The position numbers and the translations under genes are program-made. Shown here one piece after another: positions 18,290 through 63,260 of a stretch of 64,000 nt of DNA (the stretch's first letter is position 1; each line of letters opens with the position of its first letter). Source of the DNA: an uncultured Eubacteriales bacterium (GTDB lineage: Bacteria > Bacillota > Clostridia > Christensenellales > UBA1242); contig CATLAM010000004.1 in assembly GCA_949878485.1 (NCBI GenBank), positions 1 through 64,000 on the forward strand, written 5' to 3'. Below the pieces are notes generated by a model. It had not been told where the DNA came from. It saw only the letters and a program-made list of their open reading frames with translations, and made no database searches.

Positions 18290-18949
18290 ATGAAAATTAA
18301 AAAATTTCCACAAAGTTGTGTTCAAATTACGTCTAAATCGGGGGGGGTAATTTTAATTGACCCAAGTAAATTAAAATACCAAGAGAGATTTTTAGAAGAT
18401 TGGAAGAAGGCTGATGCGGTGTTTATTACACATAAGCATGGCGACCATTTTTATACCGATGTAGTAGGTCAGTTGAATGCACCTTTATTTTCTACAAGCG
18501 AAGTTGTAAACAAATACCCACAATTTAATTTTACAGTTGTAAAAGCAGGTGACAATTTGGATTTGAAAGATTTTCACATTGAAGTTGTTAAGGCTGTTCA
18601 TGGTTTCTTGCCAAAAATGAAATACAGTGGTGGGGAAGTTTTTGAAAATGTTGGTTTTATTGTTTATGCAGATGGTGTAAGTCTTTATATTTCTTCAGAT
18701 ACGATTTGTTTCAATAATGATTATAAAGCCGATTATATGTTTGCTCCTGTTACAGGTCATGGTGTAACTATGTCTGCTTATGAAGCAGGGCTTATGGCAA
18801 AAGATATGGGTGTTAAAAAATTGGTTTGTTGTCATTTAGATAATGAAAAAGATTATCCTGTTGACTTAGAAGCCGTAAGAAAAACTTTAACTGAAATTGA
18901 TATTGATTTTATTTTGCCTGAGATTGGGCAAGAAATTGAACTTAAGTAA
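18290..18949 (+). CDS. MBL-fold metal-dependent hydrolase with an intragenic G8 tract
   Basis: FITHKHGDHFYTDVVG metallo-beta-lactamase motif; UPF0173-like layout. Confidence 0.88.
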   Translation: MKIKKFPQSCVQITSKSGGVILIDPSKLKYQERFLEDWKKADAVFITHKHGDHFYTDVVGQLNAPLFSTSEVVNKYPQFNFTVVKAGDNLDLKDFHIEVVKAVHGFLPKMKYSGGEVFENVGFIVYADGVSLYISSDTICFNNDYKADYMFAPVTGHGVTMSAYEAGLMAKDMGVKKLVCCHLDNEKDYPVDLEAVRKTLTEIDIDFILPEIGQEIELK

Positions 18950-57414: not shown

Positions 57415-59091
57415 TTAGTTCTTTTTGAATAGTTGTTTTGTGAATGTGTAAAGTGAAATAACGACAACCGAATAATAAGCAAGAGAGATAAAGAAATTTC
57501 CAGAAGCATAAAGTGGAGTTTGAAGGAAGCCTGCTTGCATAATTCCGCCGCCCAAAAATGAAGTAAGGTCGGAGTGAATGAAAGGTAACAAGCAATAGAC
57601 AAATATGTTGTTTAAGAAAATGTTGCAGATTGTTGCCACAGCAAACAACAACAATGCAATGGCAAGGTTGAGTTCAAATTTACGAGAGAGATTCATTATG
57701 AAAATCGTTATTGTGGAATAGAAAACCACTTGCAATTGTATTCCAAGCATTTTTATAAGTAAGAAAACAAAAGGACTTATAAAATATATTGTGTCCAGAT
57801 TAAACACAGCAATCATTGTTCCTGGCAAGAAGGAATACATCAACGCACCCCAAATGAAATTGATGAGTGTGAATGATGCTATGCAGAAAGATGTGCAATA
57901 GAATATTGCCAAAAATTGTCCAGCAAAAACTTGATTGAAGGTGGCATTTTGTGAAATCAAGATGTCAATCTTTCCATGTTTCCTGTCAAGTCCAAAAAAC
58001 TTATAAGCTAAGAAAATTCCAAACAAGATTGTCAAAAATCCAACTATGCTTAACATGAAATATGTGTAATCAAAAGAGGAAACTTTATATGAAGCAATGT
58101 TGAAATTTAAGGCTGATTGATATTGTGTGTAATAAATGCTTTCATCTTGAAGAAAATGATTTATTTTTGTAAGGGCAACTCTGGTTTCTTCTTTGTAAAT
58201 TTCATCATAGCCTTGGATATTATTCACTTTTCCATAGTGGTTTTCCAAGACAAGTCTGAATTCATAGATGACACCATATTTGGCACTTTCGCATGTCAAT
58301 TTATAGTTTGTTGCAAGACTTTTCATCTCTTCCAAATCTTCGGAATTTCCTGCTGTTGCATTACTGTTGATTTCAACCATTTTTTGATATATTTTTTCTG
58401 TTTTTAACAATGCGGTGTTGTAATAAGTTTCTTTAAGTGTGTTTATTTCTTCTTCGGCAACATTCCAAATTTCCACTTTATTGATTGTTTCAAAAATTTT
58501 GGTGAAGTTGTCTTTTGAATTGTAAAATTCTTCCAAAATTTTATTGGCATTAGTTTTGTTTTCAATGGCACCAGAAAAATATTTGGACAATTCTTTTAAT
58601 TGTTCAAAGTCTTTTTTATTGATGATTAAGTTTGTTTCAAAATCTTTCTTTTGTTCAAATTCTTCAACAAAAGTTTTAAGGTTGTTTGTGTAATATAAAA
58701 TTTCGTTGTAGGTGACAGGTGCTGTTCCTGTAAATTGTGTGGCTTTTGCACCTTCTGTGGCACTTTGCAAAGTTTCAAAATTCTTTTTAATGTCATTTAA
58801 AGTGTCTTTATCTTTCGAATTTGAATTTAAATCTATGTAATTTAAAGTTTGTTTAAGAAGAGCGTCAAGTTTGCTTTTGCTGTCGTCAATCTCCGTTTTG
58901 TCAAATGCAGTGAAAAAGTCCACAGTTGCGTCTGCGGTGATTTGTGTGCTGTATTGCGGTGTTGCAGGAATTTTGTAGGCAAGTCCGACAATGAAACATA
59001 ATGCCAAAACCACAACAAGAAAAATGATTGTAATCGGATTCAGCATAATACGCTTAAAGTCATAGGAAGCAATTTTAAAGACTTTTCTCAC
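57415..59091 (-). CDS. ABC-2 type transporter permease with large extracytoplasmic domain
   Basis: TM1 near N-terminus, about 280-aa hydrophilic coiled region, then a cluster of TMs; overlaps the upstream ATPase gene. Confidence 0.82.
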   Translation of the reverse strand: MRKVFKIASYDFKRIMLNPITIIFLVVVLALCFIVGLAYKIPATPQYSTQITADATVDFFTAFDKTEIDDSKSKLDALLKQTLNYIDLNSNSKDKDTLNDIKKNFETLQSATEGAKATQFTGTAPVTYNEILYYTNNLKTFVEEFEQKKDFETNLIINKKDFEQLKELSKYFSGAIENKTNANKILEEFYNSKDNFTKIFETINKVEIWNVAEEEINTLKETYYNTALLKTEKIYQKMVEINSNATAGNSEDLEEMKSLATNYKLTCESAKYGVIYEFRLVLENHYGKVNNIQGYDEIYKEETRVALTKINHFLQDESIYYTQYQSALNFNIASYKVSSFDYTYFMLSIVGFLTILFGIFLAYKFFGLDRKHGKIDILISQNATFNQVFAGQFLAIFYCTSFCIASFTLINFIWGALMYSFLPGTMIAVFNLDTIYFISPFVFLLIKMLGIQLQVVFYSTITIFIMNLSRKFELNLAIALLLFAVATICNIFLNNIFVYCLLPFIHSDLTSFLGGGIMQAGFLQTPLYASGNFFISLAYYSVVVISLYTFTKQLFKKN

Positions 59092-60059
59092 TCGCGTTCC
59101 TCCTTAAAATAAGGGGTAAGGCTGGCGAAAATTTCTTCTGCTTTTCTGTTGAAATAACCTGCTCTGTGAATGGAAATTTTGTTTTGAGTTAAAAATCTTA
59201 CGATGTCTGCAGTAAGTTCTTCATTCGCTTCAAACAAAATGCGGTGACCAAGAATTTTAACTTTTAAGCCATAGTTTTCCATGACCAATTTGCCAGAGTA
59301 ATGTGGATATTTAACCCAAATAAAAGCAAAGTTTTGGTTTTGACTTAATTTGTTGCATTGTTCGTTGTTTAAAATGTCTTTAAGTTCGCGTTCTGCCATG
59401 AAAAGATAGCGGTCACAAAGGTCTTGAATTTGTTCCAATTTATGTGCACAAATTATGACATGTGTGCCTTGTTGTTTGACAAGGTTTATATAGTGTTTAA
59501 CCATTGTGACCAAGTCTTCTGGCAATGTTTTGAAAGGTTCGTCTAAAATCAAAAGAGTTGGCTTTGTTATGAATGCCAAAGCCAATGACATAAGTTTTTT
59601 CTCAAAATATGAAAGGTCTTTAACTTTTGTGTTGATTTTCTTTTCAAGTTGAAATCTTTTCAAAATTTCAATGACTTTGTTTTTTTGTGAATGTCCGCTT
59701 AAAAAATATAAATATTCAAGATTGCTTTTAACAGTTTGATGTCTGAAAAAAGAAGGTGGGTCAAGGCAAACATTAATTTTGTGAACAAGTTCTGGAAAAA
59801 CGGTGATGTCTTTGCCATTTAAAAGCACATAGCCATCACTTATTGGAAGACCGCCAGAAACTGCTTTAATAAGGCTTGTTTTTCCGCTTTTGTTTTCTCC
59901 AACTATGCCTAAGCATTCTCCATTTTTCATGGTGAATGAAACATTCTTGACAAGAAACATATTTCTCATCATGACTGTAAGATTTTTAACTTCCAAAATG
60001 TTTTCCACATTTTCAGTTTGGGCATTATTTTCGTTTTCAATCAAATTTTGATTAATCAT
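59088..60059 (-). CDS. ABC transporter ATP-binding protein
   Basis: Walker A GENKSGKTSLI; Walker B LLILDEPFKTL; H-loop VIICAHKLEQ; signature degenerate (VKDLSYFEKKL). Confidence 0.9.
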   Translation of the reverse strand: MINQNLIENENNAQTENVENILEVKNLTVMMRNMFLVKNVSFTMKNGECLGIVGENKSGKTSLIKAVSGGLPISDGYVLLNGKDITVFPELVHKINVCLDPPSFFRHQTVKSNLEYLYFLSGHSQKNKVIEILKRFQLEKKINTKVKDLSYFEKKLMSLALAFITKPTLLILDEPFKTLPEDLVTMVKHYINLVKQQGTHVIICAHKLEQIQDLCDRYLFMAERELKDILNNEQCNKLSQNQNFAFIWVKYPHYSGKLVMENYGLKVKILGHRILFEANEELTADIVRFLTQNKISIHRAGYFNRKAEEIFASLTPYFKEERE

Positions 60060-60089: not shown

Positions 60090-60130
60090 GTAAAGAGTTT
60101 TACAACAAAAAAGGGGCTTTATAAGCCCAC
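60090..60130 (-). terminator. Intrinsic terminator overlapping the stop codon of the 60119 CDS
   Basis: Minus strand GTGGGCTTATAAAGCCCCTTTTTTG; TAA lies in the loop. Confidence 0.8.
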
Positions 60131-61001
60131 AGTTTTGTCAGATTTTGTTTGTTTTACAGTGTTTGATTTATTGTTTGTTGCAGTTGCTTCTTTAATTGCT
60201 TCCTTCCTTTTCTTTTCAAGATATCTAAGTTTTGCTAGTCTTGATTTTTCTATTGCAATTGCTTCTTTTTTTCTTTCTATGATAAGCGCTTTATAATTAT
60301 TAGAAACTTGATTATAACCATTATTTAAAGCGTAATAAAGGTCTAATAATTCAGATTTTCCATCTATAATGTTATTGAAAATTTTATTATACAATTCGGC
60401 TTGTTTAGATGTCAAATTCTGGGTTTTAACTTCTTTCTTAAGGCGATTTTCCATTGTTTCTTTCAAGACTTTTTCGTAATTGCCTGTGTCATCTAAAAGC
60501 ATAAAAGGTAATGTGTGCCAATTTTGGTTATAATGCTTATCAGTTTCTATTACATTTGTAATTACTGATTTAAGAGATTCGTTGGCAAAAAATCCATTGT
60601 TGATGAAATTTTTTAAAAAATTTTCAGAAACTTTAATTTGAAAAATTCTTTTTCCTTTTGTAAATTTAGATTGAATTTCTTTTTTTCTTGAGAAATAAGT
60701 AGTAGGTTGAGATCTGATTAAATCAACTAATTCTTTATCTTCAGCGTCATAATGACTGCAAACGACATAGTTTTTGTCACTTATAGGGAGGAAATCAAGA
60801 ATATAAAATTTTTCAGGTTCAACAAAACCTTTCATGTTTGTTGGGATGTCTACAGCGTGTGATTCTTTGAAACCTAAAAATGTCCAGCCGTCTAAGTCAA
60901 AATCTTTAAATATAAGTCTATTGCGGTCTACTGAAAAAGAATTTTTTAATACTTCATTATTTTCATCTACATAAAAATCTTGAATATTTGCGTTTTGCAT
61001 A
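60119..61001 (-). CDS. Hypothetical protein under a G8-spacer promoter
   Basis: Starts MQNANIQDFYVDENNEV with AAAAGGAG upstream; Lys-rich C-terminus; family not recognised. Confidence 0.75.
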
Positions 61002-61023
61002 TTTTTCTCCTTTTTATGTTTAA

Positions 61024-61052
61024 AATATAACATCTCCCCCCCCGTTTGTCAA
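61024..61052 (-). promoter_or_regulatory. Promoter TTGACA-17-TATATT with G8 homopolymer in the spacer
   Basis: -35 61052-61047; spacer AACGGGGGGGGAGATGT; -10 61029-61024; upstream AAAATTGCCTATTGACAA matches the 15748 promoter's AAAATTGGCTATTGACAA. Confidence 0.85.
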
Positions 61053-61130
61053 TAGGCAATTTTAAAAATTGGAGAATTTTTAAGTTTAAATGTTTTGGTA
61101 AATTGGTGGGATTTGTGTTAAAATATTTTC

Positions 61131-63260
61131 ATGAGCGGATATGATTTGCAATCCTTAAATGAAGAACAAAAACAAGCACTCTTAGAAACTGAGGGTGTTG
61201 TTTTGGTGACTGCTGGTGCGGGCAGTGGTAAAACTAGGTTATTGACGCACAGAATTTGTTACTTAATAGAACATGGTGTTTCTCCTTATAATATTTTGGC
61301 GATTACTTTCACAAATAAGGCGACTAACGAAATGAAAACCCGTATTGCCGAGATGTGTGATTGCAATGTTTGGATTTCCACATTTCACTCTATGTGTGTA
61401 AGAATTTTAAGAGAAAACATTAATTACATGGAAGGTTACACACAAAATTTTACCATTATTGACGAAAATGACAAGGATAAAATTATTAAAGATTTGTTGA
61501 AAAAACATCAATGTGAAGACGATGAAAAGTCGAAAGTTTCAACGCACCTTGACAATATTAAAAATAAGGGCTTAGACATTGATGAATATTTTTCAGCACT
61601 CTCAGAATTTAACCACAACAAAGACTTAAAAATTTATGAAGCAATTTGCAATGAATATGAAGCATATTTACACAAAAACAATGCTTTGGATTTTGACGAC
61701 TTGTTAAATAAGACATTGTTTTTGTTTAGAAACTTTAAAGATGTGCTTTTCAAATATTCTGACAGGTTTCAGTATATTTTGGTGGACGAGTTTCAAGACA
61801 CAAACCTTGTGCAATATAAGTTGATCAAACTTTTGTGCAGTGTTCATAAAAACCTTTTTGTCGTTGGAGATGAAGACCAGTGTATTTATTCTTGGCGTGG
61901 TGCAAATTATCATAATATTGCCAGTTTAAAGGATGATTTTGAAGATGTTAAGGTGTTTAAGTTGGAAAGGAACTATCGTTCCACCAAAAGCATTTTAAAC
62001 CTTGCAAACAATGTTATTTCCAACAATAAAGAACGCATCAAGAAAAATCTTTGGACTGACAAAGACCTTGGGGAAGGTCCTGTTGTTTTCACTGCATTTG
62101 ATGAGCGTGGTGAAGCCATGTTTGTGGCAAAAACAATTGAGGACATGATGTGTGAAGGTTATTCATACAATGATTTTGCTGTGCTTATGCGTGTAAATGC
62201 CTTGTCCAGAACGATTGAAGAAGGCTTTTTGTCTTATCAAATTCCTTATAAGGTGTATGGTGGTTTCAAATTTTATGAACGAGCAGAAATCAAGGTTATT
62301 TTGGCTTATCTTTCTGTTTTCGTCAATCCAAATGACGAAATTTCGCTTTTAAAGATAATCAACTTTCCAAAGCGTGGAATTGGCGAAGTGGCAATTTCTT
62401 CTTTGCAGACAGAAGCAGGGGATGACACTTTGTTGAATTATCTGTTAAGTGAAAGATTTAGCACTTCAAAATATTTTTCAAAACTTGGTCATTTTGTCGA
62501 GATTTTCAAGACATTAAAAAGTCAACTTGACACTTTGCCACTTTATGAGTTTGTGGAAAAGGTTGTCAAAGGTTTTGGAATCGATGTTGCCTATGCTGGA
62601 AAAGATGATGAAAGCATCGATAAACTTGGTAATATTGACAGTTTGCTTGCAGGCGTGCAAGAATTTTGCAATGACAATGAAGATGCCACTTTGTCTGACT
62701 TTTTGGCAAATATTATGCTTAAATCGGACAGTGACAACATTCAAGAAAATGGTTATGTAAGTTTAGCAACCATTCATTCTGTTAAGGGATTGGAATTTAA
62801 GTTTGTTTTTGTTGTCGGATTGGAAGAAGGAATCTTTCCGCTTGCAAGGGCTACATTTTCTTCCAGTGAAATGGAAGAAGAAAGGCGACTTATGTATGTT
62901 GCGATTACGCGTGCTGAAGATAAAATCTTTTTATGTCATGCACAAAAACGATATATGTATGGCAAAAGTAATTATCAAGCGGAAAGCAGATTTTTAAAAG
63001 AACTTGGAATTGTGGACAAGAAGAAGCCTAAAGTTTTTTCAAGTTTAAATTCTTTTAAAGATGACTTTTTCAGAGAAGAAAAAGAAGAAGTGTTTGACAG
63101 TGGATTTGCTGTTGGTGACAAGGTGGAACACATGCGTTTTGGATGCGGTGTTATTGTCAATATTTCAGATGACGGGCTTGTTGGTGACATTGAATTTGAA
63201 GATTTTGGAAAGAAAAGTTTGATGCTTAACATAGCATCACTTGTGAAGGTGGAAGAATGA
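61131..63260 (+). CDS. pcrA: UvrD/PcrA-type ATP-dependent DNA helicase
   Basis: LNEEQKQALLETEGVVLVTAGAGSGKTRLLTHRI, VDEFQDTNLVQY, GDEDQCIYSWRGA, TIHSVKGLEFKFVFVVGLEEGIFP. Confidence 0.95.
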   Translation: MSGYDLQSLNEEQKQALLETEGVVLVTAGAGSGKTRLLTHRICYLIEHGVSPYNILAITFTNKATNEMKTRIAEMCDCNVWISTFHSMCVRILRENINYMEGYTQNFTIIDENDKDKIIKDLLKKHQCEDDEKSKVSTHLDNIKNKGLDIDEYFSALSEFNHNKDLKIYEAICNEYEAYLHKNNALDFDDLLNKTLFLFRNFKDVLFKYSDRFQYILVDEFQDTNLVQYKLIKLLCSVHKNLFVVGDEDQCIYSWRGANYHNIASLKDDFEDVKVFKLERNYRSTKSILNLANNVISNNKERIKKNLWTDKDLGEGPVVFTAFDERGEAMFVAKTIEDMMCEGYSYNDFAVLMRVNALSRTIEEGFLSYQIPYKVYGGFKFYERAEIKVILAYLSVFVNPNDEISLLKIINFPKRGIGEVAISSLQTEAGDDTLLNYLLSERFSTSKYFSKLGHFVEIFKTLKSQLDTLPLYEFVEKVVKGFGIDVAYAGKDDESIDKLGNIDSLLAGVQEFCNDNEDATLSDFLANIMLKSDSDNIQENGYVSLATIHSVKGLEFKFVFVVGLEEGIFPLARATFSSSEMEEERRLMYVAITRAEDKIFLCHAQKRYMYGKSNYQAESRFLKELGIVDKKKPKVFSSLNSFKDDFFREEKEEVFDSGFAVGDKVEHMRFGCGVIVNISDDGLVGDIEFEDFGKKSLMLNIASLVKVEE

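Follow-up and report, generated by a model that had tools for sequence, protein, structure and literature searches.

The promoter described here lies in a window of 64 kb, by which is meant the whole stretch of DNA that was analysed, in a genome of 1.12 Mb (28 contigs, about 33% GC). It precedes an open reading frame on the minus strand and faces a divergent helicase gene on the plus strand. The closest comparison is with the relative L050 (genome G085=G035), whose neighbouring UvrD-like helicase is 93% identical; G035 and G085 carry the same gene and promoter at near-identical coordinates, are apparently the same genome and were counted once. The features of the region are as follows.

61131-63260, plus strand: divergent UvrD/PcrA helicase gene (Pfam)
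61095-61124, plus strand: probable promoter for the divergent helicase gene, a weak match (9/12)
61047-61052, minus strand: -35 box TTGACA, exact consensus, kept in the orthologous promoter of L050
61030-61046, minus strand: -35/-10 spacer AACGGGGGGGGAGATGT, 17 nt (AAC-G8-AGATGT), read directly; 18 nt in L050
61036-61043, minus strand: G8 homopolymer GGGGGGGG, the proposed slippage site, read directly; G9 in the orthologue L141/L050
61031-61032, minus strand: TG of the extended -10 element (promoter scan), present in the L050 orthologue too
61024-61029, minus strand: -10 box TATATT (promoter scan)
Between the -10 box and the start codon at 61000: AAAAAGGAG, read directly
61007-61010, minus strand: ribosome-binding site GGAG, read directly; AAAGGAG is kept in L050
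60119-61000, minus strand: open reading frame for a 293-aa protein, the candidate switched gene
60114-60128, minus strand: terminator-like hairpin GGGCTTATAAAGCCC with CTTTTTTGTT at the 3' end of the gene, a consensus match only

It is certain that a promoter with a G8 run in its spacer lies upstream of the open reading frame 60119-61000. Its -35 and -10 hexamers (61024-61052) match the consensus at 11 of 12 positions in the promoter scan, and the extended -10 element reads TGTTATATT, with the TG one base upstream of the -10 hexamer. A homopolymer is found between the -35 and -10 boxes upstream of a gene, as in promoters of the porA type. Sequence reading and promoter scan agree with the preliminary description in placing a 17-nt spacer with G8 between the two boxes on the minus strand; the gene, given there as 60119-61001, was off by one and corresponds to 60119-61000. 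An Rfam search of 50-64 kb gave no match, so that no riboswitch or known RNA leader accounts for the region.

The 293-aa product is a cytoplasmic-looking protein for which Pfam, NCBIfam, PADLOC and PHROGs gave no confident match, and its AlphaFold model is poor (pLDDT 51). An orthologue is present in only one of 60 relatives, to which the protein is 44% identical over the BLAST alignment, as opposed to ~90% or more for the proteins of neighbouring genes. This distribution and divergence identify the gene as accessory and fast-evolving. Because of the terminator-like hairpin at its 3' end and a promoter-like site belonging to the next gene, an ABC transporter (59088-60059), it probably forms a single-gene transcription unit. 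Inside the gene, at 60386-60415, a perfect match to TTGACA-18-TATAAT occurs on the minus strand, along the direction of transcription; as conservation in L050 is not apparent, this internal match is probably due to chance.

The length of the tract had been called striking for low-GC DNA, and the numbers bear this out: the window contains two G/C runs of 8 (at 61036 and 18340), as against ~0.1 predicted by a first-order Markov model of its sequence. Under the same model, G/C runs of 5-7 are fewer than predicted, and A/T runs are strongly depleted: 42 of length 8 are expected and 11 occur, and of the ~35 expected with a length of at least 9 there is none. The whole genome holds 28 G tracts of at least 7, and its length spectrum is non-monotonic, peaking at G8-G9 (G6, 7; G7, 3; G8, 13; G9, 11; G10, 1), although consensus tract lengths in a metagenome-assembled genome may be off by one. 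That G8 and G9 outnumber G6 and G7 is impossible for a falling chance distribution and indicates that long G/C runs are being kept. An excess of tracts over chance within one genome is also what is seen in phasomes.

The tracts are concentrated in promoters. A permissive test, in which both boxes needed four of six matches, was dropped as 24% of random positions pass it; in the strict test, TTGACA or TTGACT had to lie within 8 nt of the tract and the -10 box to match at least at 4/6 positions, which random positions achieve in 0.8% of cases. By this measure, half of the genome's own G7+ tracts (14/28; p ~2e-22; all contexts read) are located between TTGAC[A/T] and a -10 box, and the -35 box alone is found beside 15/28, compared with 2.6% of random positions (p ~4e-17). 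The relative L050 gives the same picture (15/30 tracts; p ~7e-24). A single architecture, TTGACAAnnC8-9G(TG)TTATAAT and close variants of it, recurs in about half of the tracts. Most tract promoters carry C on the non-template strand, the site at 61036-61043 being among the few with G there. The remaining tracts of the genome are mostly inside open reading frames. Genes behind tract promoters include RidA, NUDIX, SDR, serine hydrolases, acyltransferase 3, YfhO and small membrane proteins. Membrane or surface-like targets of tracts are YfhO, acyltransferase 3, PMT_2, the Listeria-Bacteroides repeat and Big_2, while many others are cytoplasmic enzymes.

Comparison with L050 revealed both retention and change of length. 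The orthologous promoter reads TTGACA-AAT-G9-AGATGA-TATATT, giving an 18-nt spacer with flanks of the same lengths as those around the G8 of the 17-nt spacer here. Unequal tracts were also found at the promoter pairs L040/L130 (9 vs 10), L034/L133 (9 vs 8) and L026/L140 (7 vs 8). Tract length thus differs at orthologous promoters, as at porA, in a comparison that is between species only, with one genome per species. Among the 11 promoters with a detectable orthologue, 10 have kept a tract of at least 7, in 220-nt windows whose mean identity is 72% (51-89%); at this flank divergence, neutral evolution would be expected to leave a run of 8 intact at about 7% of sites. The exception is the promoter of the YfhO gene (L041/L182), where tract and -35 box are both lost. 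Four further tract promoters had no orthologue found in L050 and were counted neither way.

The strict spacing of ordinary promoters is lost where a tract is present. In 397 kb drawn from this genome and its relatives there are 32 non-tract promoters whose boxes are exactly TTGACA and TATAAT; 24 of them have a 17-nt spacer and 4 an 18-nt one. In the tract promoters of the two genomes, a 17-nt spacer occurs in only 4/28, with a range of 13-20 (p ~2e-6 vs non-tract). Order-wide, 21 exact-consensus C-tract promoters were found in 14 of 396 genomes (the reversed control pattern gave 0), and a single one of the 21 has 17 nt, the mode being 16 (11/21). By Levene's test, spacer variance did not differ significantly between order-wide tract promoters and ordinary ones (p 0.10), owing to one outlier of 24 nt within a small reference set and to the strong mode at 16; the significant difference is the shift away from 17 nt, not the variance. 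Such spacing is what promoters drifting by slippage would show, and it lends indirect support to a possible effect of tract length on transcription. In the genome itself as well as order-wide, the mode of tract promoters is 16 nt, one nucleotide shorter than in ordinary promoters (17 nt), perhaps because the state most often captured in assemblies lies one step below the optimum.

Tracts within genes differ in frame state between relatives. In an isochorismatase-like gene the reading frame continues across the tract in L016 and is shifted in L155, in a GNAT acetyltransferase it is open in L036 and shifted in L135, and in a Listeria-Bacteroides repeat protein it is shifted in L045 and open in L151. 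In a further relative (L065), two tandem membrane-protein paralogues, L065:133 and L065:1883, carry a G tract immediately behind the start codon, directly after ATGAGACGTAAATTCGC; one has G9 and is shifted after 13 aa, the other has G10 and is open for 462 aa. These are ON/OFF states of the kind described for phasomes. A frame-shifted case resembling the L065 paralogues was also seen at L056:2219. Since frame differences join the promoter-spacer tracts, the G tracts of the lineage appear to act as switches, or at least to have slipped, by two routes. The window's other G8 tract (18340-18347) lies 50 nt past the start of a gene for a metallo-beta-lactamase-fold protein (18290-18949) and the frame is open through it, making this gene a candidate for translational phase variation, ON as assembled.

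The best reading of the G8 run is that of a phase-variation (contingency) element of the promoter-spacer type and a candidate switch for the gene 60119-61000, to which we assign a probability of roughly 85%. It is backed by the placement of half of the G7+ tracts in spacers, the G9 orthologue, the lost 17-nt spacing and the intragenic ON/OFF frames. The preliminary description had proposed that slipped-strand changes of the tract alter the -35/-10 spacing and hence expression, and this is supported here as the most plausible mechanism. Slipped-strand mispairing during replication would add or remove one G, so that the 17-nt spacing would become 16, 18 and so forth, and the strength of the gene's sigma-A promoter would change with it. 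We infer replication slippage as the cause of the length differences and a switching that is reversible within populations. The promoter at 61024-61052 would be one of about 15 of its kind, with 28 tracts in all in the genome.

That such a mechanism was already known, as had also been claimed, is borne out by porA of Neisseria meningitidis, whose transcription changes when its -10/-35 spacer gains or loses a single G (PMC176907, as described in PMC3899988). The resemblance lies in a poly-G tract within the -35/-10 spacer, where a one-base change in porA alters spacing and transcription. PorA is a single outer-membrane porin of a Gram-negative pathogen, whereas the protein here is cytoplasmic-looking, belongs to a commensal of the Clostridia and would be affected in expression; a single genome here has about 15 promoters of one plan. 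In promoter repeats of Haemophilus influenzae hifA/hifB, Bordetella pertussis and Mycoplasma hyorhinis, repeat number likewise changes spacing, although hifA/hifB, with its shared divergent promoter, relies on a repeated TA dinucleotide and the others differ in repeat type and lineage (PMC3899988). The phasomes of Campylobacter and Neisseria also comprise tens of G/C tracts, intragenic and intergenic, with a modal length near 9, but consist mostly of surface-structure genes, whereas here promoter spacers hold about half of the tracts and the targets include many enzymes or small membrane proteins (PMC8355987; PMC5953494). The pili of Bifidobacterium breve provide a gut commensal in which G-tract length is a switch, there tested by maximum-depth sequencing; that tract is intragenic and acts on the reading frame, in contrast to the promoter spacing considered here (PMC9187656).

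With the spacer at the optimal 17 nt, the assembled genome probably has the gene in its high-expression state, and a relative with G9 (18 nt) would show somewhat lower expression. This assignment of G8 as the high-expression length derives from spacing only and is weakened by the extended -10 element, leaving it somewhat favoured over its opposite. With an extended -10, expression may be less sensitive to spacing, and the switch may be graded instead of all-or-none. Two points bear on the predicted switching rate. MutS is present in the genome, so that high slippage rates from absent mismatch repair are not indicated, and the enzyme would damp slippage. In N. meningitidis, mutability increases with tract length and the modal poly-G length is 9 (PMC5953494); by that standard G8 is short and its slippage rate may be low. 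It also counts against phase variation that the gene 60119-61000 and several other tract genes (NUDIX, RidA, SDR, hydrolases) are unlike the surface antigens of known phase-variable sets.

Three other explanations have to be weighed. The one that survives best, though unlikely, holds that the tract belonged to a formerly switched promoter that is now locked at the optimal 17 nt, the gene being constitutive. The spacer of exactly 17 nt, a G8 at the short end of tract lengths, the extended -10 and the presence of MutS all speak for it; yet the orthologue's G9 between flanks of the same lengths means that length does change on the evolutionary time scale, and G8 is the commonest tract length in the genome, including intragenic tracts with ON/OFF differences. 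Less probable still is a G/C run that serves as a fixed regulatory element of a regulon, such as a regulator binding site or an A-form structural spacer, without switching by length. A common operator might well produce one architecture in about half of the tracts, mostly with C on the non-template strand, and the downstream genes, which are metabolic or encode small membrane proteins, would suit a regulon. Against this, tract length varies from 7 to 10 across sites and between orthologues, orientation varies (G is on the non-template strand at 61036-61043), spacer lengths of 13-20 are unlike an operator, and promoterless intragenic tracts are enriched in the same genome and show frame switching. 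Neutral expansion of G/C runs as a mutational by-product, free of selection, is very improbable: slippage mutation alone can lengthen runs and some genomes of the genus are without tracts (G005, G009, G026), but A/T runs, which should expand too, are depleted, G6-G7 are rarer than G8-G9, half of the tracts fall exactly in spacers of roughly 17 nt, and retention at 10/11 orthologous promoters far exceeds the ~7% per site that neutral loss would leave.

At least one G8+ tract occurs in 55 of the 61 genomes of the genus, with 0 to 39 per genome; those with none are G005, G009, G013, G026, G031 and G072. Exact-consensus spacer tracts are concentrated in the genus and its family; elsewhere in the order they turn up as single cases in other families, and they occur in 2/199 other genomes of the phylum. 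The relatives are uncultured Clostridia and Christensenella sp., with stated sources in rectum, caecum and other gut samples (deer, goat, buffalo and the like). Literature searches returned nothing linking phase variation with Christensenellales and, more widely, nothing on homopolymer phase variation in gut Clostridia. The mechanism is a known one, of the meningococcal porA type; the genus-wide poly-G/C set, half of it in promoter spacers, is new in the literature searched.

A broader and rather speculative possibility, which we consider doubtful, is that the genus stochastically tunes about 15 housekeeping-like or unknown genes per genome through the length of spacer poly-G/C, as a genome-wide bet-hedging that acts on metabolism instead of surface antigens and perhaps replaces regulators lost in a reduced genome. 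Promoters switched by slippage are known mainly from Gram-negative pathogens and mycoplasmas; if the present reading is true, gut Clostridia known only from metagenomes would diversify their populations by the same means, and the many non-surface targets would widen the usual view of the purpose of phase variation.
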